Source: a virus | DNA length: 28,949 nucleotides | Virus record (IMG/VR): IMGVR_UViG_3300008221_001522 | Coordinates: 1-28,949 of that record | Strand: one strand, 5' to 3' | Part shown: in pieces, positions 1,664 through 17,911 of the stretch | Position numbering within the stretch: position 1 is the stretch's first letter | Layout of the letters: every line of letters begins with the position of its first letter | Notes under the pieces: generated by a model | What the model was told of the DNA's origin: nothing | Seen by the model: the letters and a program-made list of their open reading frames with translations, nothing else | The model's database searches: none | Translations under genes and position numbers: made by a program

Positions 1664-1665
1664 TT

Positions 1666-2289
1666 ATGACTGGTGCATGGAACGACTATAACGACGCGGA
1701 ATCCCAAACATCCTACGACCTGATCCCAAAGGGCACCATTGTACCGGTGCGTATGACCATCAAGCCCGGTGGCTATGACGATCCGGCTCAGGGTTGGACG
1801 GGTGGATACGCAACCCACAACGATACGACCGGCTCGGTCTATCTGAACGCCGAGTTTGTCATCCTCGAAGGTCCGTTTGCCAAGCGCAAGGTCTGGAGCC
1901 TAATCGGGCTTCGCAGCCTAAAGGGTCCGGAATGGGGCAACATGGGCCGGTCCTTTGTGCGGGGTATCCTGAACTCGTCACGGGGCCTTTCCGACAAAGA
2001 CAATTCCCCTCAGGCGCAGGCTGCTCGCCGTATCAACGGTTTCACGGATCTGGATGGCATTGAGTTTCTGGCCAAGATTGATGTCGGCAAGGATGCCAAT
2101 GGCGACCCGAAAAACGATATCCGGTTTGCAGTGGCTCCCAACCACAAGGATTGGGATACGTTCAAGTCTGGTGGCGGTCTCTGGACGCCGAGCCAATCGG
2201 CCCCTGCCGCAACGGCCCAGCCGATGGCCAATGCCAACACAGAAGCGCAACCGGCTTCAAACCCCAATCGCCCGTCTTGGGCTCAGTAG
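1666..2289 (+). CDS. Putative ssDNA-binding protein of the recombination module
   Basis: A 207-residue protein with a globular N-terminal part (about 1-165), rich in beta-type segments and aromatic residues, followed by a low-complexity Ala/Pro/Gln/Asn tail ending RPSWAQ. A folded domain plus disordered tail, directly after a RecA-like ATPase, is what phage single-strand-binding or DUF669-like proteins look like. No diagnostic motif is visible, so this is inference from architecture and position. The ribosome-binding site AAAGGAG lies about 9 bases before the ATG. It sits 2 bases after the ATPase stop and 12 bases before the helicase, in the same operon. Confidence 0.6.
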   Translation: MTGAWNDYNDAESQTSYDLIPKGTIVPVRMTIKPGGYDDPAQGWTGGYATHNDTTGSVYLNAEFVILEGPFAKRKVWSLIGLRSLKGPEWGNMGRSFVRGILNSSRGLSDKDNSPQAQAARRINGFTDLDGIEFLAKIDVGKDANGDPKNDIRFAVAPNHKDWDTFKSGGGLWTPSQSAPAATAQPMANANTEAQPASNPNRPSWAQ

Positions 2290-2301
2290 GGGAGGCTGGT
2301 C

Positions 2302-3978
2302 ATGTTACTCCGTCCCCGCCAGAAAACCTTCGTCGAGCGCAGTGTTCAAGCGCTCGGCGAACACGGCAACACGCTGGCTGTTGCCTCCACCGGATTTGGG
2401 AAAACAATCGCGCTGGCCGGTGTCACCGGTCAGCTGCTGAAAGGCAATGATGCCAAGGCCTGTGTGCTTGCCCATCGCGATGAGCTGACAAGCCAAAACG
2501 AGGCAAAGTTCAGTCGGGTCAATCCGGGGCTGAGTACGTCGGTCGTCGATGCCAAAACCAAATCCTGGCAGGGGCGGACCACGTTCGCCATGGTTCCGAC
2601 CTTGGCGCGCAAATCCAACCTTGCTGCCATGCCCGCTCTGGAGCTTCTGGTGATTGATGAAGCTCATCATGCGGCAGCCGACAGTTACCGTCGCATCATT
2701 GATCAGGCCAGGGACAAAAACCCGGACGTTAAGATTTTCGGTGTGACGGCCACTCCCAACCGGGGAGACAAAAAGGGTTTGCGTCCGATCTTTTCCAATG
2801 TTGCCGATCAAGTCTTCATTGGAGAACTGGTTGCTTCCGGACATCTGGTGCCGCCGCGCACCTTTGTAATTGATGTTGGCGCACAGGAAGCGCTCAAGTC
2901 GGTTCGCAAGACCGTAGATGACTTCGACATGATGGCTGTGGACGCCATCATGAACAAAGCACCGATCACGGATGCTGTGATCCAGCACTGGCGGGAGAAG
3001 GCGGGTGATCGTCAAACCGTTGTCTTTTGTTCGACGGTCGATCACGCCCGCAATGTGCGTGACGCCTTTCGCACCCGAGGTGTCCAGGCCGCCATGGTCT
3101 ATGGCGACTTGGGCGCTTCTGAACGGCGCGATGTCCTAAAGGCCTATGAGCGGGGGGAAACCCAGGTTCTCGTTAATGTCGCGGTTCTGACCGAAGGCTG
3201 GGATCATCCGCCGACCAGCTGTGTCGTCTTGCTGAGGCCGTCTTCTTATAAATCCACCATGATCCAGATGGTTGGGCGTGGCCTGCGTACCGTTGATCCC
3301 AGCGAACATCCGGGCGTGGTCAAAAGCGACTGCATTGTGCTCGATTTTGGCACCTCCAGTCTTCTGCATGGCAGTCTTGAGCAGGACGTAAACCTTGATG
3401 GCAAGGTTGGCTCCGGTCCTGCCCTGACCAAGGAATGCCCTGAGTGCGCCGCCAATGTGCCGCTGGCCGTCATGGAATGCCCGTTGTGTGGTTACCACTT
3501 CCAATCGGAGGGTAAGGAAGGCCAACAGCCGATCTCTGATTTCGTCATGTCGGAAGTGGATCTGCTCAAGCGTTCCAGTTTCCAATGGTGCGATCTCTTT
3601 GGCGATGATGCGGCGCTGGTCGCAAATGGCTTCAACGCCTGGAGCGGCATTTTCTTTCATCAGGGCCGCTGGCATGCCGTCGGCGGTGGCAAGGGCCTCA
3701 AATCGCATTTGTTGGCCATGGGTGAGCGCACCATTTGCCTGGCCGCAGCCGATGACTGGCTGAATGAAAACGAGACCGACGAAAGTGCCTATAAATCACG
3801 CTCCTGGCTCAATCAGTCGGTCACCACCCGTCAGCTTCAATTCTTACCGCCCGAATACCGTCAAGATTTTGGCCTGACCCGGTATCACGCATCGGCTCTG
3901 CTGACATTTCAATTCAATAAGGCCGCAATCACCAATCTGGTGTTGAATGCTCCTGAAGATAGCCGGAGGGCGGCATGA
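2302..3978 (+). CDS. SF2 DEAD/DEAH-box helicase with C-terminal zinc finger
   Basis: A 558-residue superfamily-2 helicase. Walker A STGFGKT is at residues 29-35, motif II DEAH at 119-122, motif III TAT at 149-151, motif V around LTEGWDHP (296-303) and motif VI QMVGRGLR at 322-329. These define two RecA folds as in the RAD3/UvrB/type III restriction helicase group. A four-cysteine zinc finger follows (Cys379, Cys382, Cys393, Cys396), then a C-terminal region of about 160 residues that I do not recognise. It probably unwinds or remodels DNA during phage replication or recombination. The ribosome-binding site GGGAGG is 6 bases before the ATG. Neighbours on both sides are nucleic-acid proteins, consistent with the early operon. 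Confidence 0.9.
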   Translation: MLLRPRQKTFVERSVQALGEHGNTLAVASTGFGKTIALAGVTGQLLKGNDAKACVLAHRDELTSQNEAKFSRVNPGLSTSVVDAKTKSWQGRTTFAMVPTLARKSNLAAMPALELLVIDEAHHAAADSYRRIIDQARDKNPDVKIFGVTATPNRGDKKGLRPIFSNVADQVFIGELVASGHLVPPRTFVIDVGAQEALKSVRKTVDDFDMMAVDAIMNKAPITDAVIQHWREKAGDRQTVVFCSTVDHARNVRDAFRTRGVQAAMVYGDLGASERRDVLKAYERGETQVLVNVAVLTEGWDHPPTSCVVLLRPSSYKSTMIQMVGRGLRTVDPSEHPGVVKSDCIVLDFGTSSLLHGSLEQDVNLDGKVGSGPALTKECPECAANVPLAVMECPLCGYHFQSEGKEGQQPISDFVMSEVDLLKRSSFQWCDLFGDDAALVANGFNAWSGIFFHQGRWHAVGGGKGLKSHLLAMGERTICLAAADDWLNENETDESAYKSRSWLNQSVTTRQLQFLPPEYRQDFGLTRYHASALLTFQFNKAAITNLVLNAPEDSRRAA

Positions 3979-3981
3979 CCC

Positions 3982-4386
3982 ATGGTGACTTCAGGAAACG
4001 CTGCCGCCCGTTTGAGGCTATGGCATCCGCACGGGGAGCTCTGTGCCGTCTGTCGGCGACCAACCCGTGGTTTTGGCTGGTTCGACCGCCATTCAACGAA
4101 GCGTCCGCGAATTCAGCGGTGGTTCTGCTCCATGGACTGCCAGGGTTTTTGGTCGCGCTTGGCGAAGGAGGGCTTGGGCATGGTTGATTTGAGCGAACAA
4201 GAAAAAGCCGCCCTGCGCCATGCCGTCAAAATGCTGGCCGAAGTGATGGAAGAGATCGGTTGGGAAACCCGGTTGATTGATCTCACAGAAGCCCAGGTTC
4301 TCACTCTCGCTGAAGTCTGCGTTGGCGGGTTCCAGGACGCCATGCTGTCGATTGCCAAAGGCGAAGATACGGAGGTCCCCTTTTGA
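3982..4386 (+). CDS. DUF6511 zinc-finger phage protein
   Basis: A 134-residue protein. The N-terminal half holds paired cysteines (CAVC, then FCSMDC about 30 residues later) around a conserved-looking GFGWFD segment, which should bind one zinc. The C-terminal half is a helical, acidic domain. The pattern matches my recollection of DUF6511, found beside helicases and Cas4-like nucleases in alphaproteobacterial phages; its function is not established. The ATG at 3982 lies 3 bases after the helicase stop. An ATG at 3975 opens a different frame without the cysteine pattern. The GGAGG at 3965-3969 is about 12 bases away, a little long. The stop overlaps the next gene's ATG by one base. Confidence 0.75.
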   Translation: MVTSGNAAARLRLWHPHGELCAVCRRPTRGFGWFDRHSTKRPRIQRWFCSMDCQGFWSRLAKEGLGMVDLSEQEKAALRHAVKMLAEVMEEIGWETRLIDLTEAQVLTLAEVCVGGFQDAMLSIAKGEDTEVPF

Positions 4387-5147
4387 TGTTGGACTACAAT
4401 TCCTCCCAAACATTCGCCGATCAGGTGAACGCTCATATCGATGAGGCTTTGGTTGCCGAGAACCAACGCCAAACACCGCGCCAATATCTCGGTGGCTCCC
4501 GTCTTGGCGTTGCCTGTGAACGGGCTCTGCAATTCGAATACGCCCAGGCCCCGAAGGACGATGGTCGCGATTTCGATGGGCAAACCCTGCGTATCTTTGC
4601 TGCCGGTCACGTCTTTGAGGACCTGGCCATTGATTGGCTGCGCAAGGCTGGCTTCGAGCTCTATACGACCAAAGGCAACAAGCCTGGAGGAGAGCAATTC
4701 GGTTTCAGTGTCGCGACTGGCCGTATTCGCGGTCATGTGGACGGCATAATCAACGCAGCCCCGGTCATGGATGGCTTCCCAGCCCTTTGGGAATGCAAAT
4801 CACTTAACAACAAGTCCTGGAATGACACCGTCAAACGCGGGGTCACGGTTTCCAAGCCGGTTTATGCCGCGCAGATCGCCACCTACCAGGCCTATATGGA
4901 AGCCTCGGTTCCGGGCATTTCTCAAAACCCGGCACTGTTTACCGCCATCAACAAGGACACAGCGGAGCTTCACCATGAGCTGGTTGCGTTTGATGGCGGG
5001 CTTGCCCAACGCATGAGCGATAAAGCGGTGCGCGTGATTCAGGCGACAGAAGCCGGTGAGTTGCTGCCCCGTATCGCGCAATCGGCTGATTTCTTCGAGT
5101 GCAAATTCTGCGACTGGTCTGATCGGTGCTGGAGAACCGGCGGATGA
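4386..5147 (+). CDS. Cas4/RecB-like PD-(D/E)XK nuclease with Fe-S cysteines
   Basis: A 253-residue nuclease. PD-(D/E)XK motifs are visible: a GH motif at 74-75, Asp119 in GHVDGI, Glu136 and Lys138 in WECKSL, and the QxxxY helix motif (Gln163, Tyr167). One N-terminal cysteine (Cys44 in GVACERA) and three C-terminal ones (Cys239, Cys242, Cys248) reproduce the four-cysteine iron-sulfur pattern of Cas4/AddB-type nucleases. Phage proteins of this type are single-strand exonucleases in recombination or replication. No CRISPR or cas1/cas2 gene is nearby, so this is a replication nuclease rather than an adaptation protein. I prefer ATG 4386 (GGAGG 10 bases upstream, TGATG overlap) to TTG 4383. The stop overlaps the primase start (ATGA). 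Confidence 0.87.
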   Translation: MLDYNSSQTFADQVNAHIDEALVAENQRQTPRQYLGGSRLGVACERALQFEYAQAPKDDGRDFDGQTLRIFAAGHVFEDLAIDWLRKAGFELYTTKGNKPGGEQFGFSVATGRIRGHVDGIINAAPVMDGFPALWECKSLNNKSWNDTVKRGVTVSKPVYAAQIATYQAYMEASVPGISQNPALFTAINKDTAELHHELVAFDGGLAQRMSDKAVRVIQATEAGELLPRIAQSADFFECKFCDWSDRCWRTGG

Positions 5148-7348
5148 GCAATGAGGTTGTAAACATTAATGACTGGCGGGATTTCAATTCAGCCGCCCCC
5201 CAGCGCCAGGACGATGCCCGCCAAACAGGGCTCGCGGTTGATGAGATCAAGGCGCGGCTCAATGCCAATTTGCGTGGCCTTCTGTCCTACCTTTTTCCCG
5301 CCGGTGTTTTCCGTCATGGAAAATTTCTGGTTGGCGATGTCCGAGGCAACAAGGGCGAAAGCCTGAGTGTTGAGCTCACCGGGCCCAAAGCCGGGATGTG
5401 GCATGACTTTGCGACAGGTGAGGGTGGGGACGTGCTCGCACTCTGGGCTGCGGCAACAGGGCGCAACACCCAATCGGATTTCCCATCGTTATTGGATGAC
5501 GTTCGCCAGTGGCTGGGCGAGCCGCGACCGGAAACTGTAACTGCTGAACCGGAACGTACCGTGCCGATGGACGAGTTGGGGCCGGTGACAGCCAAGTGGG
5601 ACTATGTTGATGGAGAAGGCGCTTTGTTGGCCTGTGTCTATCGCTATGACCCGCCCAGTGGAAAGCAGTTTAGGCCTTGGGATGTCACTTGCCGGAAGAT
5701 GAAGGCTCCGGAACCGCGACCACTTTATAACCAGCCCGCCATGAAATCCGCCATGGATGTGGTGTTGGTCGAAGGCGAGAAGGCGGCAGATGCCTTAATC
5801 AGCCAGGGCGTTTGTGCCACGACGGCCATGAACGGGGCTAAGGCACCGGTTGAGAAAACCGACTGGTCACCGCTTTGTGGCAAACGGGTATTGATCTGGC
5901 CCGACAAGGATGCGGCAGGTTGGCAGTACGCGGAAGCTGCTGCCGAGGCGGCTCTTCGTAGCGGTGCACTTTCCGTAGCCATTCTTATGCCGCCTCTGGA
6001 TAAACCGGAAAAGTGGGATGCGGCGGACGCTGTCGATGACGGCATGGATATTGATGCCTTCATTGCCAACGCACCGCGTCAATCCATCGTAAGCCCGAGG
6101 TCCAATGCGCAAGCCTTTAGCCTGAAGCAGTTGCTGGGTGATCGCTCTGCCATGCCGGACGACATCATTGCGCCTCGTGTCCTGACACCATCAGGCCTGC
6201 TGGTTTTTGGCGGTGCGCCCAAGGTTGGCAAAAGCGATTTCTTGCTCTGCTGGTTGGTTCACATGGCCGCAGGCATTGAGTTTCTGTCCTTTACGCCACC
6301 GCGTCCTTTGCGCGTTTTCTATCTGCAGGCCGAAATCCAGTACCACTATCTCCGCGAACGTCTTCAGGAAATCTCGTTGCAGCCTGAGGTGATCCGCCAA
6401 GCCCATGACAATCTCGTCATCACGCCGCAGCTCAAGCTCATTTTGAATGAAGCGGGCATTCAGACGGTTGGCGCTTTAATCCGAAAACACTTCCCCGATG
6501 GGCTGGACATCATCGTCATTGATCCGATCCGAAACGTCTTTGATGGCGGTGAAGCGGGGCCCAGTGAGAACGATAACAATGCCATGTTGTTTTTCTTGCG
6601 CGATCGTGTTGAGAAACTTCGTGACGCCGTGGACCCGGACGCAGGCATCATTCTCGTCCATCACACCCGCAAGCTTTCAAAGAAACAGGTTGATGAGGAT
6701 CCATTCCAGGCGCTTTCCGGCGCAGGGGCGCTTCGGGGGTATTACAGCTCAGGCATGATCCTGTTTCGCCCTGATGAAACGCGCTCTGAACGCAAGCTCA
6801 TCACGGAACTGCGTAACGGCCCAGCCCTGGCGGCAAAGATCGTCGATAAGGACGGTGGCCAATGGGTTGAGATTGATCCGTCATCAGAGAGGCTGATCCG
6901 TCAGGAATATGGCGAAAAGCTAGATGCCGAGCGTCTCCGTAAACGCGACGTTATTCTTCAGGTTCTCTTCGAAGAAGCTCTGGGCGGGCGGGTTTACACC
7001 GCGACCCAATTTGCCGAGCGGTTTGAAAACCGGGCCGGTTTGGGTGGCCGGAGTACCATTGCTGAACGCGTCAGTGTTCTGACCACCAAAGGCTACATCA
7101 AATACTTCCGCAATCCCGAAGATCACGACCTGCCGCCTCTGCCGCGCACCCGCTACGGCTATCTCTGCGTTCAAGGCATGCAGCTGGGTGAGGCCGAGGA
7201 CGTTATGGATGAGGAGACCGGTGAGGTTTTTCAAAGCGTCCACCAGCTCCTTCCGACCCATTACAAGTGCCACCAGTCAGGAGCCGTTCTGGAGGTCGAA
7301 AGCCCCCACAACTGGGTCTATCACGATGAGGAGATGGACCATGAATAG
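5144..7348 (+). CDS. Toprim primase / RecA-fold replicative helicase (DUF3987/AAA_25-like)
   Basis: A 734-residue replication protein. The N-terminal 130 residues resemble the DNA-binding part of phage primases. A Toprim domain follows (catalytic Glu210 in LVEGEKAAD; DxD Asp254/Asp256 in IWPDKD). Then comes a RecA-fold ATPase of the RepA/AAA_25 type: Walker A GGAPKVGKS (356-364), Walker B IIVIDP (456-461), and the sensor-like LVHHTRK (504-510). The last 130 residues probably form winged-helix segments. It likely makes primers and unwinds the fork. I chose ATG 5144, which overlaps the nuclease stop and has GGAG 9 bases upstream, over GTG 5126. The gene ends the first early block and is followed by a non-coding repeat region that may be an origin. 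Confidence 0.9.
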   Translation: MSNEVVNINDWRDFNSAAPQRQDDARQTGLAVDEIKARLNANLRGLLSYLFPAGVFRHGKFLVGDVRGNKGESLSVELTGPKAGMWHDFATGEGGDVLALWAAATGRNTQSDFPSLLDDVRQWLGEPRPETVTAEPERTVPMDELGPVTAKWDYVDGEGALLACVYRYDPPSGKQFRPWDVTCRKMKAPEPRPLYNQPAMKSAMDVVLVEGEKAADALISQGVCATTAMNGAKAPVEKTDWSPLCGKRVLIWPDKDAAGWQYAEAAAEAALRSGALSVAILMPPLDKPEKWDAADAVDDGMDIDAFIANAPRQSIVSPRSNAQAFSLKQLLGDRSAMPDDIIAPRVLTPSGLLVFGGAPKVGKSDFLLCWLVHMAAGIEFLSFTPPRPLRVFYLQAEIQYHYLRERLQEISLQPEVIRQAHDNLVITPQLKLILNEAGIQTVGALIRKHFPDGLDIIVIDPIRNVFDGGEAGPSENDNNAMLFFLRDRVEKLRDAVDPDAGIILVHHTRKLSKKQVDEDPFQALSGAGALRGYYSSGMILFRPDETRSERKLITELRNGPALAAKIVDKDGGQWVEIDPSSERLIRQEYGEKLDAERLRKRDVILQVLFEEALGGRVYTATQFAERFENRAGLGGRSTIAERVSVLTTKGYIKYFRNPEDHDLPPLPRTRYGYLCVQGMQLGEAEDVMDEETGEVFQSVHQLLPTHYKCHQSGAVLEVESPHNWVYHDEEMDHE

Positions 7349-7367
7349 GGGGCAAATTCTCGGCTGT

Positions 7368-7530
7368 GATTTCTGGAGTCCATGGAGTCCAGACATACTC
7401 TGGATTCAAAGTTTCAATGAAAACAGTCGGTTAGGGTCAATTCAGAAATCCAGCCGGATTCCTGTCTGGATTTCTGGATTCCTGACGAAACATGAGGATT
7501 TCTGCGGCTTTCAGACCCCCATCAGAAATC
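7368..7530. repeat. Cluster of five GATTTCTG motifs (iteron-like array) after the primase gene
   Basis: The 316-base gap 7349-7664 has no convincing gene. Its left half holds five exact copies of the octamer GATTTCTG: three on the plus strand (7368-7375, 7469-7476, 7497-7504) and two inverted (7443-7450, 7523-7530). All three plus-strand copies and the inverted ones lie in a wider context close to GGATTTCTGGA. A perfect 9-bp tandem repeat, TGGAGTCCA twice, is at 7374-7391, and GGATTCCTG occurs twice (7456-7464 and 7477-7485). Clustered short repeats beside a replicative primase-helicase suggest an origin or a protein-binding array. That role is inference. Confidence 0.55.
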
Positions 7531-7541
7531 CAAGTGAATAC

Positions 7542-7595
7542 CTCCCCCTAAAGGGGGAGAGGGCTACGCCAGCGCTGACGCTTGGCGAACCCTCT
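7542..7595. terminator. Double-hairpin structured element (possible terminator or palindromic repeat unit)
   Basis: Two adjacent inverted repeats. CTCCCCC (7542-7548) pairs perfectly with GGGGGAG (7553-7559) around TAAA. AGAGGG (7558-7563) and CGCCA (7567-7571) pair with CCCTCT (7590-7595) and TGGCG (7583-7587) around an inner GCG/CGC stem. There is no T-tract after either hairpin, so intrinsic termination is not assured. The look is that of short palindromic interspersed elements seen in alphaproteobacterial intergenic DNA, which I recall but cannot verify here. It lies 70 bases before the RuvC-like gene. Confidence 0.45.
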
Positions 7596-7664
7596 TCGCC
7601 ATGGTCGTCGATCCTGCCCGGCCATTTCTCCCATCAGCATTGTTCAATCAATATGGAGGCAATT

Positions 7665-8186
7665 ATGCCAGCACCAACCTCTGTTCAAGTTCTACCTGAC
7701 CCGTGTGACGGTCCACTCAAAATTCTAGCCCTCGATCTCGGCACCAAAACCGGATGGGCTGTCTATTTGCCTGACCGAACAATCACCAGCGGTATTGCCG
7801 AATTTAAAAATGATCGCTGGCAAGGCGGCGGCATGCGTTTTCTTCGGTTCAAGCAATGGCTCACCGAGGTCAAGCAAATGGCCGGTGGTCTGGATGCTGT
7901 GTTCGTTGAGGAGGTTCGTCGTCATGCCGGTGTGGATGCCGCCCATGTCTACGGTGGATTTCTCGCCCATGTGACCGCCTGGTGCGAACACCACGCCATT
8001 CCTTACGAGGCTGTCCCGGTCGGCACGATCAAACGTCACGCAACAGGCAAAGGGAACGCCAACAAGGAAGCCATGATTGAGGCCGCTCGCCAGCGCGGGT
8101 TTGAGCCTGCCGATGACAACGAAGCCGACGCCTTAGCGATCCTTGATTGGGCCAAGGTCAATCGTGGGGGAGGGGTGGATCAATGA
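7665..8186 (+). CDS. RuvC-like Holliday junction resolvase
   Basis: A 173-residue RNase H-fold nuclease. The acidic active-site residues sit in LALDLGTKTGWA (Asp near residue 23), VFVEEV (Glu near 82) and the C-terminal DNEADALAI helix, the RuvC/phage resolvase arrangement. The usual RuvC length is about 170 residues, so it looks complete. It would resolve branched DNA made during replication and recombination before packaging. The start at 7665 has GGAGG 6 bases upstream. The frame stays open into the preceding region and even into the primase gene, but that extension crosses repeats and hairpins and lacks a credible start. The stop overlaps the next ATG (ATGA). Confidence 0.88.
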   Translation: MPAPTSVQVLPDPCDGPLKILALDLGTKTGWAVYLPDRTITSGIAEFKNDRWQGGGMRFLRFKQWLTEVKQMAGGLDAVFVEEVRRHAGVDAAHVYGGFLAHVTAWCEHHAIPYEAVPVGTIKRHATGKGNANKEAMIEAARQRGFEPADDNEADALAILDWAKVNRGGGVDQ

Positions 8187-8440
8187 ACGGCGAAATGATG
8201 CTCAAACAGGCTGCTGCTATTGTGGGCAATCGCCGTGAGACTTATGGCGAGCCGTCCGCCTCTATGTCGGCCATTGCCAAACGCTGGTCGATCACCTTGG
8301 GCCAGCCAATCACGCCCTCGCAGGTGGCTCTGTGCCTGATTGATCTGAAACTGGCGCGGCTGGCCCATGACCCCGGACATCTCGACAGCATGATTGATGT
8401 TGCGGGCTATGCCGCCGTGCTGAAGGAGGTGAGCCGATGA
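8183..8440 (+). CDS. DUF6378 phage protein (85 aa)
   Basis: An 85-residue protein with the pattern I associate with DUF6378: an N-terminal helix, the RRETYGEP turn, a middle IDLKLARLAHDP segment and the ending DSMIDVAGYAAVL. The function of the family is not established. The pattern of conserved Asp and Arg in helices resembles small nucleotide-binding or MazG-like helical folds, but this is only an impression. The ATG overlaps the resolvase stop, and its own stop overlaps the next start by 4 bases; the whole set is translationally coupled. Confidence 0.8.
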   Translation: MNGEMMLKQAAAIVGNRRETYGEPSASMSAIAKRWSITLGQPITPSQVALCLIDLKLARLAHDPGHLDSMIDVAGYAAVLKEVSR

Positions 8441-8631
8441 GATGGCACCCTCCCGGATATGGCGGTACGCGCCGCAATGCCGATCAGGTCAAGCGTGATG
8501 GTTGGCAGGAGCAGGGCATGTTGGCGGTTTCCATTGAGGATGATCGCCTGACCTGGCCTGAGAAGGAACTCGTTCGCCAATTAGGCGACAGGCTCTATGG
8601 CAAACGAAAGGATGTAATTCATGAGCAATGA
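8437..8631 (+). CDS. Hypothetical small phage protein (64 aa)
   Basis: A 64-residue, highly charged protein beginning MRWHPPGYGGTRRNADQVKR. The N-terminal third is rich in Gly, Arg and aromatic residues; the remainder should be helical. A strong ribosome-binding site (AAGGAGG) precedes the ATG, which overlaps the previous stop by 4 bases. Its end overlaps the DUF6362 gene by 11 bases. I do not know its function. Similar short proteins sit next to DUF6378 and DUF6362 in related phages as far as I recall. Confidence 0.7.
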   Translation: MRWHPPGYGGTRRNADQVKRDGWQEQGMLAVSIEDDRLTWPEKELVRQLGDRLYGKRKDVIHEQ

Positions 8632-9064
8632 TCAATGGACAGCCTCACTTGTGGAGGAGCGGTTGGCGGAAGCCGCAGGGGTGTTGAAACGCCTGCCTGA
8701 AGAAAAGGTGCAGGGCTATTTCTCGGCCTGGCCTGATGTGGTTCACAACATCCATGAATCCTTTGGCTGGCATGATCCTGTGCTGCGCAGACCCTGGCCG
8801 TCACCCGGATCCATTGACCGGATGGATGAGGCGATGCAATGGCTGCAGTGGCTGGAAGCAGACGTTGCCAAGATCTGTTGGTTTCGGGCGGCGGGTGAAC
8901 GCTGGAAGAAGATCTGCGGACGGGTCGGTCTGCAGCGGACGGCAGTCCATCAACGCTACCTTTTTGGCCATTGTGTCATTGCCTGGAAGCTTAACGGTCA
9001 TAGGGTGCCGCGTAATTGTTCGCGCCGCAAAGTGATAGAAATAGTTCAATCGGCGAAGGCATGA
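8621..9064 (+). CDS. DUF6362 protein, probable HTH regulator
   Basis: A 147-residue protein matching my memory of DUF6362: a WPDVVHN segment, RPWPSPGSIDRMDEAMQWL (about residues 65-85) and a C-terminal helix-turn-helix-like part, RWKKICGRVGLQRTAVHQRY (about 99-118). The basic C-terminus and the helix-turn-helix suggest DNA binding. It is the last gene before the cos region, so it could be a late-gene regulator, but that is inference. The gene overlaps the previous one by 11 bases. A terminator-like palindrome follows 12 bases after the stop. Confidence 0.75.
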   Translation: MSNDQWTASLVEERLAEAAGVLKRLPEEKVQGYFSAWPDVVHNIHESFGWHDPVLRRPWPSPGSIDRMDEAMQWLQWLEADVAKICWFRAAGERWKKICGRVGLQRTAVHQRYLFGHCVIAWKLNGHRVPRNCSRRKVIEIVQSAKA

Positions 9065-9211: not shown

Positions 9212-9412
9212 GGGTCCTTCCTGGCCGATATCCTATGCGGGCGGGCTCAGCGCGGGATTTTCCTAGTGACGCCCTGAAAAAAGCCATTTCGTTTCGTTTG
9301 GACCGCAGCCGTCATCGCGGCTTGTCCGGCGGAAACGTTGGTGATGCGGACATCGCTCGCACGATCGATAAAACGAAACCAGCCCCCTGACCATTTCGTT
9401 TCAAAGCGAAAT
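9212..9412 (+). other. Putative lambda-type cos site (cosQ-cosN-cosB)
   Basis: GGGTCCT at 9212-9218 equals the lambda cosQ heptamer. Twenty bases further, GCGGGCGGGCTCAGCGCGGG (from 9237) closely resembles the lambda cosN context, including the CGCGGG followed by a short TTTT run (9251-9262). By alignment with lambda the 12-base cohesive end would be GGGCGGGCTCAG (9239-9250). Downstream, CCATTTCGTTTC occurs twice (9284-9295, 9391-9402). An inverted GTTTCGTTTT-type copy lies at 9370-9379, and CGAAAT follows at 9407-9412. These resemble in layout the terminase-binding R sites of cosB. The window also carries Nu1-like and gpA-like terminase genes, the family that uses such sites. The similarity is from memory of the lambda sequence; cutting is inferred. 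The region 9065-9448 otherwise holds no supported gene. Confidence 0.65.
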
Positions 9413-9448
9413 GCCATCGGTCTTGGCTATCCATTTAACGAGGTCATT

Positions 9449-10705
9449 TTGAGCGCACAGATCATCAATGTTGGTGACAAGGTCGAGATGGTTGCCATTG
9501 GCGATCTGGCCTGCCATCCGGAAAACCCGCGTCGGGGGAACCTTGATGAAATCCGCTCCAGCATCCGTGTGAACGGATTTTATGGGGCGCTGGTCGTTCA
9601 ACGCTCCACCGGTCACATCCTTGCGGGCAATCACCGCTTCATGGCCGCAGAGGCCGAAGGGCTGGGTAAGGTTCCGGTCATCTATGTGGATGCCGATGAC
9701 GATGATGCAAAAGCCATTCTGGTTGGAGACAATCGGCTTTCCGATCTGGCAGAGAATGATCCGGAATTATTGGCTGCCTTGTTGCAGGCGATCCAGTCGC
9801 GCGACGAAGGGCTGACTGGTACAGGCTACTCAGATGACGACCTTGCTCAAATGCTGGCCCAAGCCGCCGGTGATATGGGTGCAGAACTCGAAGGGGAAGA
9901 TGATATCCCCGACACCCCGGAACAGCCGGTAACCCGGCCCGGGGACCTCTGGACGCTTGGGAACCATCGACTGATTTGCGGTGATGCAACCATTGCCACC
10001 GATATTGAACGCTTGCTCGGTTCGGTCAAACCGCTGCTCATGGTCACCGACCCGCCCTATGGGGTCGAGTATGATCCGGACTGGCGGAACAAGGCTGGGG
10101 CTGCAGCGACCAAGCGCACGGGCAAAGTGCTTAATGATGATCGGGCCGATTGGTACGATGCTTGGGTCTTGTTCCCAGGTGACGTTGCCTATGTCTGGCA
10201 CGGCGCGTTGCATGCGACGACAGTTGCCGACAGCTTGGAACGCGCTCACTTCAATGTTCGCTCCCAGATTATCTGGGCCAAGGAACGTCTGGTGCTTAGC
10301 CGTGGTGATTACCATTGGCAGCATGAACCTTGCTGGTATGCGGTCAAAAAGACCGGCAAGGGGCACTGGGCTGGTGACCGGAAGCAAACGACGCTCTGGC
10401 AGATCTCCAGCCGTGACCAAGATGCGGAAACCGTGCACGGGACGCAAAAGCCAGTGGAATGTATGCGCCGTCCCATTTTGAACAATTCGAGCCCGGGCCA
10501 GGCTGTCTATGAACCCTTCATGGGATCGGGGACGACCCTGATTGCAGCCGAAAGCACGGGGCGGGTCTGTTATGGCGTAGAATTAAATCCGGCCTACGTG
10601 GATGTCGCTATTGCGCGCTGGCAAAACGTCACTGGTCAAAAAGCCATATTGGACGGCGACGGCCGTTCGTTTGAAGAAATCAAGAGTGGGAGGCTGGATA
10701 CGTGA
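9449..10705 (+). CDS. ParB-like domain fused to DNA methyltransferase (DPPY class)
   Basis: A 418-residue fusion. The N-terminal 110 residues are a ParB/sulfiredoxin-like domain (HPENPRRG at 23-30, GALVVQRSTGHILAGNHR at 46-63). A linker follows, then a beta-class methyltransferase: catalytic DPPY (201-204) first and the SAM-binding FMGSGTT (357-363) last. DPPY enzymes methylate adenine N6 or cytosine N4; the target site cannot be read from sequence. It probably protects phage DNA or acts in regulation; no cognate restriction gene is adjacent. I prefer the TTG at 9449 (GAGG 5 bases upstream, start right before the ParB domain). ATG 9344 would extend the protein into the cos region. The stop overlaps the next GTG. 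Confidence 0.87.
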   Translation: MSAQIINVGDKVEMVAIGDLACHPENPRRGNLDEIRSSIRVNGFYGALVVQRSTGHILAGNHRFMAAEAEGLGKVPVIYVDADDDDAKAILVGDNRLSDLAENDPELLAALLQAIQSRDEGLTGTGYSDDDLAQMLAQAAGDMGAELEGEDDIPDTPEQPVTRPGDLWTLGNHRLICGDATIATDIERLLGSVKPLLMVTDPPYGVEYDPDWRNKAGAAATKRTGKVLNDDRADWYDAWVLFPGDVAYVWHGALHATTVADSLERAHFNVRSQIIWAKERLVLSRGDYHWQHEPCWYAVKKTGKGHWAGDRKQTTLWQISSRDQDAETVHGTQKPVECMRRPILNNSSPGQAVYEPFMGSGTTLIAAESTGRVCYGVELNPAYVDVAIARWQNVTGQKAILDGDGRSFEEIKSGRLDT

Positions 10706-10929
10706 GACAGTCCAGACGTATGTCTTTTTTGGAATCACTAACCAACGTCGCCGTTGGCTACGGCGTGGCGGTTACAGCCCAGATCGCTGTATTCCCTTTG
10801 TTCGGTCTCCATGTGCCGCTTGCCGATAATCTTATGATCGGCGCGATTTTCACAGCCATCTCGATTTTACGCAGTTATACCCTGCGCCGTATCTTCGAAG
10901 AAATTCGGGTTCGGAAGGTCTGGAGCTGA
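10702..10929 (+). CDS. DUF7220 small membrane protein (75 aa)
   Basis: A 75-residue protein with two hydrophobic segments (about residues 14-33 and 42-58) separated by a short loop. It has a basic N-terminus and a C-terminus ending in Arg-rich RRIFEEIRVRKVW. It matches the DUF7220 pattern (ANVAVGYG-like and RSYTLRR segments) that I recall from alphaproteobacterial phages. It should sit in the inner membrane; holin-like or regulatory roles are possible but unsupported. The start is GTG, overlapping the methylase stop (GTGA), with GGGAGG 9 bases upstream. The stop lies 1 base from the end of the leftward DUF3489 gene, so the two transcription units converge with no terminator between them. Confidence 0.75.
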   Translation: MRQSRRMSFLESLTNVAVGYGVAVTAQIAVFPLFGLHVPLADNLMIGAIFTAISILRSYTLRRIFEEIRVRKVWS

Positions 10930-10930
10930 G

Positions 10931-11371
10931 TCACGCTTCGGTGTGAATACGATAGACCTGCTTGCCGCTGTAAGACTGCTCGTTGACCACATTGAGGCCG
11001 AGTTTCTTGCGTAGCACATTGCTGATGGCTCCGCGCACCGTGTGTGGCTGCCAACCGGTCGCTTTCGTCAGTTCTTCGATAGAAGCGCCTGAGCCGGTTT
11101 GAAGCATATCAATGAGGATGGATTGTTTGGTGATCCGCTTGGGTCGAGCTGTTTTGACCTTTTGGGGAACGACAGGTTTTGGCGCTTCGATCATAGTCAA
11201 TCCAGCGGCCTGAAGGATCTCACCCTGGGTCAGCTTGTGCTCTTTCATCAGCTCCATGACCCGATCAATGGCCTTGGATTTGTAATTGAAAGATTTGGCG
11301 GTGGTTGGCGTTCCAGTGATGGTTTCGATCGCACGGGCCAGTTGGCTGACTTTGAGTTTCTTGATTTCCAT
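10931..11371 (-). CDS. DUF3489 winged-helix protein
   Basis: A 146-residue basic protein. The N-terminal 55 residues are helical, a Pro/Lys linker (about 64-80) follows, and the C-terminal 65 residues form a winged helix-turn-helix characteristic of DUF3489 (SILIDMLQTGSGASIEELTK, then TGWQPHTVRGAISNVLRKK). The fold indicates DNA binding, probably transcriptional regulation of its own operon or of the late genes starting 300 bases away. The start has GGAG 9 bases upstream and lies 15 bases after the stop of the 82-aa gene, so the two form a leftward operon. It is oriented against all surrounding phage genes. Confidence 0.83.
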   Translation of the reverse strand: MEIKKLKVSQLARAIETITGTPTTAKSFNYKSKAIDRVMELMKEHKLTQGEILQAAGLTMIEAPKPVVPQKVKTARPKRITKQSILIDMLQTGSGASIEELTKATGWQPHTVRGAISNVLRKKLGLNVVNEQSYSGKQVYRIHTEA

Positions 11372-11386
11372 GGTTTTCGTCTCCGC

Positions 11387-11635
11387 TCAGTAATTTTCTT
11401 TGAAGGCGTAAAAGCGGACGGTCTTGCCACCCGGCATGTTGACCCGGGCAATCGGCGCATCGAGGTCAATTCGGCTGGTGTCGATCATGTTGATCGCTTG
11501 GCTTTCGGTCTTGCCTGTGTGGTAGCCGATAAAGTGGGTGACCATTTCAATGAGCTCGTCCTGACTTGAGGCCCGGTTCCAAGGACGGGGCAATTTGGTG
11601 CTGTCGTCGTTCATCATGATGGCAATGCTGGTCAT
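11387..11635 (-). CDS. Hypothetical protein, first gene of leftward operon (82 aa)
   Basis: An 82-residue protein of unknown family, slightly acidic and soluble, with no membrane segment. The middle (about 24-50) should be helical, and the end (RVNMPGGKTVRFYAF) looks like two beta strands. A good ribosome-binding site (AAGGA) precedes the ATG at 11635; an in-frame ATG six codons in is the alternative. It is the promoter-proximal gene of the leftward unit and is followed by DUF3489. A 49-bp palindrome lies 9 bases upstream of the start, so expression is probably controlled there. Confidence 0.68.
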   Translation of the reverse strand: MTSIAIMMNDDSTKLPRPWNRASSQDELIEMVTHFIGYHTGKTESQAINMIDTSRIDLDAPIARVNMPGGKTVRFYAFKENY

Positions 11636-11712: not shown

Positions 11713-11736
11713 GTAATTAATCACCTTTTGGCGGTC

Positions 11737-12312
11737 ATGTCGGATAACACGCAGCCCATTTCCGTGATCTCGAGCCTGCTCGATATCTCCGAGCGTCGGG
11801 TTCAGCAATTATCGAAGGCAGGTGTCATTCCGAAGGCAGCAAGGGGCCGATACGAGCTTATTGGGTCCGTGCGCGGCTATATCCGCCATCTGCGTGATCT
11901 CAATCTTAAAGGAGAGGTGGGAAACGCCGATTATGGAACGGAACGTGCCCGGTTGGTGAAGGCCAAGGCTGACCTTGCGGAGATGGAGGCCTCCCAGATG
12001 CGAGGAGATTTACTCTCCGCTCCTGACGTGAAAGTGGCCTGGACGGAAATCGTGGCGCTGATGCGTGCACGGCTGCTGGTGCTGCCTGACAAAATCGCAC
12101 CGGTGGTTCATGAAACGACAAGCCTCAACCAAGCAAGGGACGTCATCAAAAAGGCAGTCCACGAAGTGCTCAAGGAAATCGCCGAAACGGACGTTGAAAT
12201 CGTCCATCACATTGATGGGGACGACAGCATTGCAGCTGGTGGCGAAACAAACGCTGGAAGCGGCAGCACCACCTCCAGATCTGACCGTAAGTCAGTGGGC
12301 GGACAAAAATAG
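11737..12312 (+). CDS. Terminase small subunit (Nu1-like DNA-packaging protein)
   Basis: A 191-residue protein. The N-terminal 60 residues form a winged helix-turn-helix as in lambda Nu1 (ISSLLDISERRVQQLSKAG, then GRYELIGSVRGYIRHL). A helical region with YGTERARLVKAKADLAEME (about 75-95) follows, which is the classic signature of this family. The last 35 residues are low-complexity Ser/Gly/Thr. It should bind the cos region and recruit the large subunit. The ATG at 11737 begins three codons after an in-frame TTG (11728); neither has a strong ribosome-binding site. It overlaps the large subunit gene by 98 bases. Confidence 0.87.
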   Translation: MSDNTQPISVISSLLDISERRVQQLSKAGVIPKAARGRYELIGSVRGYIRHLRDLNLKGEVGNADYGTERARLVKAKADLAEMEASQMRGDLLSAPDVKVAWTEIVALMRARLLVLPDKIAPVVHETTSLNQARDVIKKAVHEVLKEIAETDVEIVHHIDGDDSIAAGGETNAGSGSTTSRSDRKSVGGQK

Positions 12313-14152
12313 ACGGTTGAGCTCTGAAGCGAGCTCCGAACCCGGACAATGGGTAACGGAACGCGCCGAGTATCAACGTGGAATCATGAACGCCATTTCT
12401 GATGCCTCGGTGGAAACCATTGTCGTGAAGACCTCGGCCCAAGTCGGCAAGACGGAATGTATTCTGAACACGGTTGGTTATCACGTCGATCAAGACCCAT
12501 CACCCATCATGGTGGTGATGCCGACGGAACGAGATGCCGAGACCTGGTCGAAGGACCGCTTTGCACCCATGGCGCGGGATACGCCGTGTCTTCGTGGGAA
12601 GCTGTCGGATCCGAAGTCCAGGGATGGGTCAAACAAGATCCTGCATAAGAAGTTTACGGGTGGTCATCTGACGATCGTTGGTGCTAATGCTCCGTCCGGC
12701 TTGGCCATGCGCCCGATCCGGGTCTTGCTGTGCGATGAAGTCGATCGCTATCCGCCCAGTGCCGGTGCGGAAGGCGACCCAGTTAATCTGGCGCGAAAAC
12801 GGACAGTGACGTTCTGGAACCGCAAGATCGTTCTGGTCTCAACGCCGACGATCAAGGGCGTGAGCCGGATTGATGCGGCTTGGGAAGAGAGTGACAAACG
12901 GCGTTTCTGGGTGCCTTGCCCGGACTGCGGAACCCATCAGGTTTTGCGATGGGAACAGGTCCATTGGGAAAAAGACGCTGCTGGTGCCCACCTCCCGGAA
13001 ACGGCTCACTACGTTTGTGAGGAGTGTGGCTCGGTTTGGTCTGATGCACAGCGGTGGTCTGTAATCCGCCATGGTGAATGGCGAGCAGAAAACCCTTTCG
13101 CCGGGATCGCAGGGTTCCATCTGAATGAAATTTATTCGCCATGGGTTCGATTGGAAAACATGGTCCGAGCGTTTTTATCTGCCAAAGCCCAAGGGGCTGA
13201 GGGTATGAAGACCTTCGTGAATACCTCCCTTGGTGAGACCTGGGTCGAGACCGGCGAAGCCCCAGATTGGGAACGTTTATACGATCAGCGCCAGCTCTGG
13301 TCTCCAGGGACGGTGCCGAAGGGTGGTCTGTTTTTGACGGCGGGAGCCGATATTCAAAAAGACCGCATCGAAGCCGATGTCTGGGCCTGGGGGCGGGGAC
13401 TGGAAAGCTGGCTGGTTGATCACATTGTGATCGAGGGCGGTCCGCATGACCCAGACCCATGGCTGAAGCTGGAAGGTCTATTGGATCAATCCTGGCCCCA
13501 TGAAAGTGGTGCCCATCTTCGTATCGCCAAGTTGGCGGTCGATACCGGTTATGAAGCTTCGGCTGTTTATGCCTGGGCGCGGCGGGTCGGTTTTGGTCAG
13601 GTTGCACCCATCAAAGGTGTTGAAGGGTTCAATCGATCAAGCCCGGTGTCAGGCCCCACGTTTGTGGATGCGACCGATGGCGGCAAGAAGCTCAAACGCG
13701 GTGCGCGGCTTTGGACGGTTTCTGTCTCGACCTTCAAGTCTGAGACCTACCGTTTTCTAAGAGCGGCCCGCCCAACGGATGAGGAGAGAGCCGAGGGTGC
13801 CGAGTATTTACCGGGCACGGTTCATCTGCCGACATGGGTGGAGACGGAATGGCTGAAACAGCTGGTCGCCGAGCAGCTTGTCACCGTCAAGAACAAACGC
13901 GGGTTTACCCGCCTTGAATGGCAAAAACTGCGTGAGCGCAACGAAGCTTTGGATTGCCGGGTCTATGCCCGGGCTGCAGCCTGGATTGCGGGAGCTGATC
14001 GATGGTCTGATGAAAAGTGGTCAGACCTGGAAGATCAGCTTGGCGTTCCGGCTGGAGATACCGAAGCAGCGGGTATGATCAACCGCCCGTCCAACCCGCC
14101 GACGGAAAAGCGCCGTTCGGATTGGTTGGGGCGGCGCGAAAACTGGTTTTAA
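12215..14152 (+). CDS. Terminase large subunit (lambda gpA family)
   Basis: A 645-residue motor-nuclease close to the 641 residues of lambda gpA. The N-terminus carries SQWADKNRRLSSE, equivalent to the gpA WADANYYLPKES segment. Walker A is SAQVGKT (74-80) and Walker B LLCDE (Asp174/Glu175). Two CxxC pairs (235/238 and 268/271) suggest a zinc site. The nuclease domain carries Asp379 (AGADIQKD), Asp443 (AVDTGYE) and a late Asp in EALDCRVYA. It would cut cos and pump DNA into proheads. I chose ATG 12215 because it gives the gpA length; the frame is open upstream to 12065, but there it only mirrors the small subunit gene. Confidence 0.93.
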   Translation: MGTTALQLVAKQTLEAAAPPPDLTVSQWADKNRRLSSEASSEPGQWVTERAEYQRGIMNAISDASVETIVVKTSAQVGKTECILNTVGYHVDQDPSPIMVVMPTERDAETWSKDRFAPMARDTPCLRGKLSDPKSRDGSNKILHKKFTGGHLTIVGANAPSGLAMRPIRVLLCDEVDRYPPSAGAEGDPVNLARKRTVTFWNRKIVLVSTPTIKGVSRIDAAWEESDKRRFWVPCPDCGTHQVLRWEQVHWEKDAAGAHLPETAHYVCEECGSVWSDAQRWSVIRHGEWRAENPFAGIAGFHLNEIYSPWVRLENMVRAFLSAKAQGAEGMKTFVNTSLGETWVETGEAPDWERLYDQRQLWSPGTVPKGGLFLTAGADIQKDRIEADVWAWGRGLESWLVDHIVIEGGPHDPDPWLKLEGLLDQSWPHESGAHLRIAKLAVDTGYEASAVYAWARRVGFGQVAPIKGVEGFNRSSPVSGPTFVDATDGGKKLKRGARLWTVSVSTFKSETYRFLRAARPTDEERAEGAEYLPGTVHLPTWVETEWLKQLVAEQLVTVKNKRGFTRLEWQKLRERNEALDCRVYARAAAWIAGADRWSDEKWSDLEDQLGVPAGDTEAAGMINRPSNPPTEKRRSDWLGRRENWF

Positions 14153-14374: not shown

Positions 14375-15870
14375 TGACGGTAAGCTGGTTAGATAGAGCT
14401 GTTGCCGTAATTTCGCCCGTAACCGCAACAAAGAGAGCTTTGGCCCGTCAGGCGTTTGACGGTCTTGCTCGCGGTTACGATGGCGCGTCCAAGGGGCGCA
14501 GGACCGATGGTTGGCGAACGGCGGGCACATCTGCCGACACGGAAGTCGGTATGGCCAGTGCCCTGTTGCGCGATCGCATGCGTGATCTTGTCCGCAACAA
14601 TCCGCATGCGGCCAAGGCTGTATCCGTTCTGGTCAACAACATCATCGGCGCGGGCATCATGCCTCGGGCCGTTTCGGGGAATGAAGAACTCGATAAGGCC
14701 GTCAACAAACTTTGGGGCCAATGGTCTCGCCAGTGTGACGCCGATGGTCAATTGGATTTCTATGGTCTTCAGACCCTGATTTGTCGGGAAATGGTCGAAG
14801 CCGGAGAGGTGCTGGTTCGTCGTCGAATGCGAAAGACCTCTGATGGCCTGAACGTTCCGATGCAGATCCAGATTCTCGAAGCGGATTTCTTGGATGCGAC
14901 ACGGAACGGCGAGACTGCCGGGAAAGACCGCCTTGTCCAAGGTGTGCAATTCGATGGCATTGGCCGGAGAAAGGCCTACTGGATCCATGAGAGCCATCCC
15001 GGTGATGCCTTTGGTGCAATCCAAGGAGGCTTTCAAAGCAAGGCGATTTCTGCCGCCGATATCGTTCATGTTTATGAGAAACAGCGTGTGCAGGTTCGCG
15101 GTGTTCCATGGGGAGCGCCGGTCATCCGGTCTTTGAGGGATCTTGATGACTATGAGGTGGCTGAGATTGTCCGCAAGAAAACGGAAGCCTGTGTCACGGC
15201 GATTGTTTTTGGCGATGACGAAACCCAGCAGGGCGTTGCACCGGCGGTGACCGATGCAGATGGCAAACGCGTCGAACAGTTTGAACCTGGTTTGATCGCT
15301 TATGCCCGTGGCGGCAAGGACATCAAGTTTAACCAGCCTGCCGCAACAGGTGGATATGCAGAGTATAAACGAGCCAGCCTTCACACCGTATCGGCGGGGT
15401 TTCGGGTGCCCTATGAATTGCTCACTGGTGACTTGAGCCAGGTGAACTACTCCTCAATCCGTGCCGGCCTCGTTGAGTTCAGGCGCATGATTGATGCTGT
15501 TCAATGGCAGTTGTTCATTCCCATGCTTTGCCAGCCAGTCTGGAACTGGTTTACCGAGGCGGCATGGGTGGCAGGGCACATCCCTGAGCCGGTGGTGCCG
15601 GTTGAGTGGTCGCCGCCGAAATTTGAAGCCGTGGATCCCATGAAAGATGCCATGGCGGATCTACTCTCCATTCGTTCCGGCACCATGACTTTGGCGGAAG
15701 CCATTGCACGGCAGGGCCGCAACCCAGATGCCGTGCTGGCCGAGATCGCCAGCATGAACACCAAACTGGATGCAGCCGGGATCGTTTTGGATTCCGATCC
15801 AAGGCGGGTCACCAAAACCGGGAGCGCGCAAACAACGGACGCTTTTGCCGCCACCGACACCACAGACTGA
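14374..15870 (+). CDS. Portal protein, lambda gpB family
   Basis: A 498-residue portal subunit; lambda gpB has 533. Typical segments are ARGYDGASKGRRTDGWR near residue 30, MVEAGEVLVRRR (about 140-151), and the central LTGDLSQVNYSSIRAGLVEFRR (residues 350-371), the most recognisable feature of this family. It forms the dodecameric channel at one head vertex and docks the terminase. The C-terminus is low-complexity Thr/Ala. It is coupled to gpW upstream (TGATG) and followed after 13 bases by the protease/capsid gene. Confidence 0.92.
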   Translation: MTVSWLDRAVAVISPVTATKRALARQAFDGLARGYDGASKGRRTDGWRTAGTSADTEVGMASALLRDRMRDLVRNNPHAAKAVSVLVNNIIGAGIMPRAVSGNEELDKAVNKLWGQWSRQCDADGQLDFYGLQTLICREMVEAGEVLVRRRMRKTSDGLNVPMQIQILEADFLDATRNGETAGKDRLVQGVQFDGIGRRKAYWIHESHPGDAFGAIQGGFQSKAISAADIVHVYEKQRVQVRGVPWGAPVIRSLRDLDDYEVAEIVRKKTEACVTAIVFGDDETQQGVAPAVTDADGKRVEQFEPGLIAYARGGKDIKFNQPAATGGYAEYKRASLHTVSAGFRVPYELLTGDLSQVNYSSIRAGLVEFRRMIDAVQWQLFIPMLCQPVWNWFTEAAWVAGHIPEPVVPVEWSPPKFEAVDPMKDAMADLLSIRSGTMTLAEAIARQGRNPDAVLAEIASMNTKLDAAGIVLDSDPRRVTKTGSAQTTDAFAATDTTD

Positions 15871-15883
15871 AAACGAGGATCAG

Positions 15884-17911
15884 ATGGATAAAACCATTGA
15901 ACTCCCGGCCATGCGCCGGGCGGCGGAGCTTGCGCCGAATTCAGCGGATAAGGAGGCCCGAACCATTGACGTGGTCTGGTCAACGGGAGCTCGGGTTCGA
16001 CGCCAGCCTTTTCTGGGCGACCCTTACGATGAGGACCTGAGCCTTGAACCAGACCACGTTCGTCTTGAACGGCTGAACGGAGGGGCTCCGTTTCTGAAGG
16101 TGCATGAAACCGGTGAGCTTAATGCCGTCATCGGTTCTGTTCTTCCAGACAGCGCGCGCCTTGAGAACGGTCAGGGTATCGCGACGATCCGGTTCTCTGA
16201 GCGAGACGAGGTCGAGCCGATTTGGCGCGACATCGTCGCCGGTCACATCCGGGCGGTTTCCATTGGCTATCAGGTTCACCGCTACGAGGTGAGCAAGTCG
16301 GAAGCAGGCAGGGAACTTTGGCGGGCTGTCGATTGGACCCCCTTTGAAATTTCTGCCGTGCCTGTTGGGGCAGACCCTGCCGCAGGTTTTCGATCCAACC
16401 ACACCACCCAAACACATGAGTGCGTCGTGCAACGTGGCGACGCTGAAGATTGCAGCAAAAGGAATTCCACCATGCATGACGACGATACTCCCATCACCGA
16501 GGAAACTGAGATGACCGAAGATGCTGTGAGCACGGAGGATGCTCCCAAGGTTCAGGAGCCGCAGGAAAAGCGTGCCCTTGAGCAACGAAACAAGACGCCT
16601 GAGGTCCAGAAGCCCGATGCTGACGCATTGGTGACAAAGGCCCGTGATCTTGAGCGGGAACGTATCTCGACCATTTTTGATCTGGCAGGCAAACTTGATC
16701 TGGAACGCGGTGTCGCCGACGACCTGGTCAAACGCGGTGTTTCCCTTGATGAGGCACGCAAGATCATCCTGGATCAGGTTGCCACCAAATCAGAAGAAAC
16801 CCGCACCTTCTCGCAGGTTACCGTTCCCCTTGGCGGACAGGATGAGCGCGTGACCCGTCGCCAGGCCGTGAGCAACGCACTGCTTCATCGCTACAGCCCG
16901 ACACTGTTCCCGTTGGAAGATGCGGCCCGTGAATATCGTGGCATGACCCTGATGGAACTGGCGCGCGAGAGCCTTGCCAATGTGGGCGAAAATACTCGAG
17001 GGATGTCTCGAGACGAGGTCGCGACCCGTGCTCTTCATTCCACATCGGATTTCCCGGAAATATTGGCCGCCGTCACTAACAAGACGCTTCGCCAAGCATA
17101 CGATGTCTATCCACGAACCTTCACGCTTTTTTGCCGTCAGGTTCTGGCTACGGATTTCAAGGCCATGCACCGGGTGCAGTTGGGCGAAGCGCCGCAGCTT
17201 TTAAAGGTCAACGAAAGTGGCGAATTCAAACGGGGCACGCTTGGGGAGTCCAAGGAAAGCTATCGTATCGAAACCTATGGCCGGGTGGTCGCGATCACCC
17301 GTCAGGTTCTGATCAACGACGATCTGGACGCCTTTACCCGGATCCCCGCCATGTACGGCAACTCCATCGCCCAGCTTGAAAGCGACGTGGTCTGGGACAT
17401 CGTCACCGCAAACCCAGCGATGGCCGACAACAAGGCTTTGTTCCATGGTGATCACAAGAATCTGGCCGGAACCGGAGCAGCGCTCTCTGTTGATGCAGTT
17501 GGTGCTGCCCGCGCGGCCATGGCCAAACAAACCGGGATGGACAAGAAAACGGTTTTGAACATCCGTCCGTCGTTCTTGATCGTTCCAGCTTCTTTGGAGC
17601 TGAAGGCCGAGCAGATGGTGGCTCAGAACATTGTGCCAGCCGATACGGCCAATGTGGTGCCGCAGTCGATTCGCACCTTGTCGCCAATCTCCGAACCTCG
17701 CTTGGATGCTGTAAGTGAAAAGGCCTGGTATCTGGCAGCCAACCCGAATCAGATCGACACCATCGAATACGCCTATCTGGAAGGCCAGCAAGGAGCCTAT
17801 ATCGAAACCCGAAACGGCTTTGACGTGGACGGCGTTGAAATCAAGTGCCGACTGGATTTCGGGGCCAAGGCCATTGATTGGCGCGGGCTGTTCAAGAACC
17901 CCGGCGCGTAA
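15884..17911 (+). CDS. Prohead protease / major capsid protein fusion
   Basis: A 675-residue fusion. Residues 1-190 are an HK97-type prohead protease: His74 in LKVHETGE and Ser126 in AVSIGYQV are the expected catalytic pair. Residues 195-290 form an acidic, coiled-coil-like scaffold segment. Residues 300-675 are the major capsid protein, related to Mu gpT-like heads (TNKTLRQAYDVYPRTF, NGFDVDGVEIKCRLDFGAKA). One polypeptide thus supplies protease, scaffold and shell; the protease should cut itself away. I chose ATG 15884 (GAGG 6 bases upstream). An internal ribosome-binding site before Met197 could give a separate scaffold-capsid product of 479 residues. A hairpin follows the gene. Confidence 0.9.
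   Translation: MDKTIELPAMRRAAELAPNSADKEARTIDVVWSTGARVRRQPFLGDPYDEDLSLEPDHVRLERLNGGAPFLKVHETGELNAVIGSVLPDSARLENGQGIATIRFSERDEVEPIWRDIVAGHIRAVSIGYQVHRYEVSKSEAGRELWRAVDWTPFEISAVPVGADPAAGFRSNHTTQTHECVVQRGDAEDCSKRNSTMHDDDTPITEETEMTEDAVSTEDAPKVQEPQEKRALEQRNKTPEVQKPDADALVTKARDLERERISTIFDLAGKLDLERGVADDLVKRGVSLDEARKIILDQVATKSEETRTFSQVTVPLGGQDERVTRRQAVSNALLHRYSPTLFPLEDAAREYRGMTLMELARESLANVGENTRGMSRDEVATRALHSTSDFPEILAAVTNKTLRQAYDVYPRTFTLFCRQVLATDFKAMHRVQLGEAPQLLKVNESGEFKRGTLGESKESYRIETYGRVVAITRQVLINDDLDAFTRIPAMYGNSIAQLESDVVWDIVTANPAMADNKALFHGDHKNLAGTGAALSVDAVGAARAAMAKQTGMDKKTVLNIRPSFLIVPASLELKAEQMVAQNIVPADTANVVPQSIRTLSPISEPRLDAVSEKAWYLAANPNQIDTIEYAYLEGQQGAYIETRNGFDVDGVEIKCRLDFGAKAIDWRGLFKNPGA
16457..16474 (+). 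promoter_or_regulatory. Internal ribosome-binding site and in-frame ATG inside the protease/capsid fusion
   Basis: AAAAGGA (16457-16463) is followed by 8 bases and an in-frame ATG at 16472. That ATG is Met197 of the fusion, right after the protease domain and at the start of the acidic scaffold segment. Spacing and sequence are as good as for the main starts in this operon. Lambda uses an equivalent internal start (Nu3 within C). Use here is inference. Confidence 0.5.

Follow-up and report, generated by a model that had tools for sequence, protein, structure and literature searches.

A probable lambda-type cos site 2.5 kb from its terminase genes in an uncultured phage, and its recurrence among alphaproteobacterial phages with GpA-type terminases

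The window analyzed here, IMG/VR virus record IMGVR_UViG_3300008221_001522 at its full length (positions 1 to 28,949; 28,949 bases), very probably contains at 9212-9413 a complete lambda-type cos site (cosQ-cosN-cosB) that would serve the TerS and TerL encoded downstream and would place the left end of the virion DNA at 9239/9240. This reading draws on the sequence of the site, its conservation, its match to the published virion ends of relatives and the covariation of TerS with the cosB repeats. The site is composed as follows.

9212-9218, plus strand: cosQ-like GGGTCCT, putative packaging termination signal, identical to lambda cosQ (GGKTCCT is nearly invariant among relatives)
9234-9250, plus strand: cosN, TATGC (9234-9238) followed by GGGCGGGCTCAG (9239-9250), aligned with the lambda ends and the published RcHotPocket and RcKemmy ends
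9251-9271, plus strand: right flank of cosN, CGCGGGATTTTCCTAGTGACG, kept in relatives (lambda counterpart CGCGGGTTTTCGCTATTT)
9285-9300, plus strand: R3-like predicted TerS site CATTTCGTTTCGTTTG in cosB, bp 47-62 from cosN, core copy bp 47-57 (lambda R3, bp 53-66)
9370-9380, minus strand: R2-like inverted site (AAAACGAAACC), bp 132-142 (lambda R2, bp 109-124, likewise inverted)
9392-9402, plus strand: R1-like site CATTTCGTTTC, bp 154-164 (lambda R1, bp 151-166)
9403-9413, minus strand: extra inverted R-like copy AAAGCGAAATG adjoining R1, from sequence indexing

The initial annotation had proposed cosQ, a cosN-like sequence with CGCGGG and downstream repeats in lambda order, all of which are present, and its gap of 20 bases between cosQ and cosN, as against about 23 in lambda, agrees with the 20 and 23 bases that we measured (lambda reference NC_001416; cos literature PMC4669245 and PMC9026076). 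Direct reading places CGCGGG immediately to the right of the cosN GGGCGGGCTCAG and, together with indexing, CGCGGGATTTT at 9251-9261. The combination of cosQ, 15-30 bases and GGGCGG N6 CGCGGG has a single match in the window and none in 1000 Markov shuffles of it. The R-type repeats span 9285-9413 in the lambda orientation, R3> <R2 R1>; exact copies of CATTTCGTTTC occur only twice in the 28.9 kb, at 9285-9295 and 9392-9402, and while these direct copies had been recognized, the two inverted ones (9370-9380 and 9403-9413) had been missed. The R2 of the window is a weak copy, and perfect inverted copies occupy the equivalent place in two relatives (L031 and L041). No IHF site within 1 mismatch was found between R3 and R2 in the window; such a site is present in 11 of 64 non-lambda loci against about 2.3 expected, in a set whose members are not independent. 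From the alignments, the top-strand nick is predicted either before 9239, as in lambda (12 nt), or before 9240, as in the Rhodobacter phages (11 nt), and that on the other strand at 9250/9251.

The proposed check by alignment with lambda-family cos sites supports this placement, as the window cosN aligns with the ends of lambda and with those of two Rhodobacter phages. RcHotPocket and RcKemmy have defined ends with an 11-base 5′ overhang (PMC8601537); their records end with ...CTATGCG and begin with GGGGGCGGAAGCGCG, both ends falling inside the cos element (in RcHotPocket the end reads ...GGTTCTTCCGGACCCCTACGCTATGCG and the start GGGGGCGGAAGCGCGTTAAGTCCCTAGCGTGACA, and RcKemmy is likewise). 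Their junction matches CTATGC-12 bases-CGCG of the window, with the cut displaced rightward by one base relative to the lambda equivalent. In RcOceanus, the equivalent junction is internal to the record because the record was opened at the ParB gene. The earlier suggestion of a left end at 9239, with the early genes at the right end, is thus supported by the published ends of relatives, except that the nick may be at 9240. The gene order of RcHotPocket and RcKemmy (cos, ParB gene, leftward genes, TerS, TerL) is also that of the window, and about 2.1-2.3 kb with the ParB gene and leftward genes lie between their cos and TerS, which starts at 2305 in RcHotPocket and at 2067 in RcKemmy. The corresponding genes of the window are listed below.

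9449-10705, plus strand: ParB-domain/N6-N4 methylase, leading gene at the predicted left end of the virion DNA (Pfam ParB_N and N6_N4_Mtase; PHROG 498)
10702-10929, plus strand: DUF7220 small protein (Pfam E 6.7e-34)
10931-11635, minus strand: two leftward ORFs between cos and TerS (DUF3489, 10931-11371; unknown, 11387-11635)
11728-12312, plus strand: terminase small subunit TerS, HTH ERRVQQL (PHROG 57, E 2.6e-27)
12218-14152, plus strand: terminase large subunit TerL, GpA family (Pfam GpA_ATPase 1.7e-94, GpA_nuclease 6.8e-93)

Between cosN and the TerS start at 11728 there are about 2.5 kb, holding the ParB-methylase, DUF7220 and the two leftward ORFs, in line with the 2.4 kb with a methylase and leftward genes given initially. 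The portal belongs to the lambda family. Left of cos (1-9064) are replication-like genes, AAA/primase-like and helicase-like, and a DUF6362 gene (8621-9064) whose 31-33% identical relative occupies the final gene position in RcOceanus and RcKemmy and therefore sits beside their right end. Elsewhere in the window, head protease and major capsid protein are fused (15770-17911; PHROG 4523), as annotated in Rhodobacter RcC phages, and two adjacent leftward ORFs in the head/tail region (19287-19812) resemble a RelE/RelB-type toxin-antitoxin pair, as judged from translation.

With the window TerL as query, we collected 80 viral and 60 genome loci, and the relatives are spread across the Alphaproteobacteria. 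Among the 71 loci with more than 8.3 kb of upstream DNA, 69 have the cos element upstream of TerL, as a single copy on the TerL strand and 2.2-8.0 kb away; it was never found on the opposite strand in this set. In the two loci without it (L132 and L142), the TerL matches cover part of the query, and these may be degraded prophages. The ParB-methylase gene starts about 160-375 bases past cosN in most relatives. The consensus expression, which was refined on the same relatives later counted and is independently checked by shuffles, a reversed-pattern control and TerL position, gave no match in Markov shuffles totalling 55.9 Mb. Searching viral contigs by pattern alone returned 25, of which 19 hold a GpA TerL; the other six are records of 4.1-19.3 kb that may be fragments. 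Exact-pattern scans of bacterial genomes found 39 elements (reversed-pattern control, 0); in 30 cases a GpA TerL follows downstream on the strand and contig of the element. In another eight, the element sits on a different contig of a fragmented assembly, and at least six of these contigs stop within 5 kb further downstream. The remaining one lies on a 4.29 Mb contig in a genome without any GpA TerL (G233). Contig ends were considered as a proxy for virion ends, and none of the contigs examined stopped at the nick.

The element is thus conserved across divergent GpA-terminase phages, and in close relatives cosQ, cosN and the R sites are unchanged or nearly so while the flanks vary. Such constancy is difficult to reconcile with a vestigial cos in a virus that packages by headful from another site, an explanation to which we give very little weight. 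Headful packaging has been reported, from a heating test, for temperate and active Paracoccus phages; however, Pyei1, the Paracoccus phage with a GpA TerL that we examined, has no cos element in the 6 kb that precede TerL. No second cos-like element was found elsewhere in the window.

If the site is a working cos, the R repeats would be read by TerS. In 36 distinct loci, the segment at +44 to +64 from cosN (R3 lies at +46) was compared with the downstream DNA; in 27 of the 36, the best inverted and direct copies, taken together, scored above shuffles (p ≤ 0.05), a descriptive figure since the loci are related. Subfamilies differ in their R core (TTTCG, TTTCC, GTTTCC, GTTACC, YTACC, GTTGCC, GTGGCC and GAAGCC/GAGTCC), which is paired with the TerS helix: ERRVQQL goes with TTTCG, ERRVRQL with TTTCC, SHTAVRKA with GTTTCC, SHVAVLKA with GTTACC, SHTAVQKA with GTTGCC, and SRGAIQKA with GAAGCC or GAGTCC. 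RcHotPocket (SHTAVGKA and GTTTCC) is consistent with this pairing. On a FastTree phylogeny of 64 TerL sequences, weakly supported branches included, the TerS helix changes 11 times, the R class 12 times and the pair jointly 12 times. Contact between the TerS recognition helix and the R sites is established in lambda (PMC9026076), and we carry it over to the alphaproteobacterial GpA phages because their R repeats covary with the helix.

The same covariation argues against taking the R repeats for a centromere-like or operator site of the adjacent ParB-domain methylase, with an incidental resemblance to cosQ and cosN. That the ParB-methylase gene begins about 200 bp downstream of the repeats in many relatives would suit such a role, as would the ParB-directed modification proposed for ParB-Tls loci (PMC6536676). 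We nonetheless consider it highly improbable, given also that the published RcHotPocket virion ends lie in the cos element and that several loci with the methylase 1.5-3.7 kb away keep this element intact.

Two prophages of one strain (L114 and L116; PUHN01000022.1 and PUHN01000028.1) have almost identical TerL proteins and differ in both TerS helix and R repeats (GTGGCC vs GTTGCC), which looks as if specificity modules were exchanged. A separate observation concerns the orphan element of genome G233, where no GpA terminase was found. Here a complete cos element at L201:5343, whose repeats are of the GGGAATCCACC type, lies beside primase-like genes, a FitA/PIN toxin-antitoxin pair, type I restriction-modification genes, a Fic protein and HNH, in an island (L201:989-16691; G233:C1 about 3446990-3462690) with a serine recombinase abutting tRNA-Gln. 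No relative of the window methylase occurs within 1.5 kb of this cos, and a search for att repeats gave no useful repeat and no borders. The island may be a cos-dependent phage satellite carrying defence genes. A more general scheme, which we put forward tentatively and would not yet favor, is that alphaproteobacterial GpA phages combine a near-invariant cosQ-cosN with exchangeable cosB and TerS modules that change in concert across a distance of 2-8 kb, that one residue of the TerS helix seems to read the R-repeat base preceding CC (residue R pairing with T, L with A and Q mostly with G), and that cos-only islands such as L201 exploit the pairing as satellites.

For the window virus itself, we infer binding, cleavage and ends by way of a lambda-type cos. 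TerS, encoded 2.5 kb away, would bind the R repeats of cosB, and the GpA-type TerL would nick cosN in staggered fashion to leave an 11- or 12-base GC-rich 5′ overhang (9239/9240-9250). Packaging would then proceed rightward from cosN across the genes for methylase, terminase, head and tail and stop at the next cos on the concatemer, recognized via cosQ. The virion left end would open with the ParB-methylase gene and, with packaging starting at 9239/9240, the replication genes (1-9064) would belong to the right end. This likely fixes the physical genome map of an uncultured phage and indicates a lambda-type cos working at a distance from its terminase genes. From the consensus, virion ends can be predicted for many phages and prophages of Alphaproteobacteria, and it can locate terminase-less elements that may hitch-hike on such phages; the naturally matched TerS helices and R sites allow the reading of cosB by TerS to be tested directly. 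We found no statement of a shared cos consensus for alphaproteobacterial GpA phages in the open-access papers examined; the newer parts are this family-wide consensus, the TerS-R pairing and the one orphan cos in a terminase-less genome.

Among known systems, lambda shares with the window the cosQ GGGTCCT, placed 23 rather than 20 bases before cosN, the GGGCGG start of cosN, the CGCGGG and TTTT to the right of it, a set of three R sites of which R2 is inverted, a GpA-type TerL and an HTH TerS. The window differs in its R core CATTTCGTTTC, in having no clear IHF site and in the 2.5 kb between cos and TerS, which are directly adjacent in lambda; we regard this adjacency as typical of lambda, not as a functional requirement. 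In N15, cosB has been described as simpler, with a single R site. In the ParB-Tls locus of alphaproteobacterial prophages, the terminase is likewise preceded by a ParB-fused methylase and further genes, whereas no cos is mentioned at the head of the locus in the passages inspected (PMC6536676). Two further phages were considered and set aside: Aurantimonas phage AmM-1 (methylase 49% identical, TerL only 29%), in whose record, which starts at TerS, the element has no match, and Roseobacter phage CRP-811 (GpA TerL), without such an element in the terminase-proximal ends inspected. AmM-1 (L001:46221-46380) and Pyei1 (L218:5507-5682) share a different intergenic element, AGGGACCGT..CCC ... GGGTCGG ... 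CCCGAAA ... GCTAGTT or GCCAGTT; it lies close to the AmM-1 methylase and beside TerS of Pyei1 and could be another type of packaging site. Another parallel is with the RcC-cluster Rhodobacter capsulatus phages RcHotPocket and RcKemmy (PMC8601537), which carry the cos element at their published ends and encode TerL and portal proteins 46-47% and 54-56% identical to those of the window; as differences, their overhang, GGGGGCGGAAG, has 11 bases, their R repeats (GGTTTCCACTT) are directly oriented, their ParB gene has no fused methylase and GGTTCTT stands at the cosQ position. The distance between cos and terminase, which the initial annotation had presented as an oddity, is therefore real but less odd than it seemed, since cos apart from TerS is the norm among these alphaproteobacterial GpA-terminase phages and is already visible in the published Rhodobacter phage genomes.
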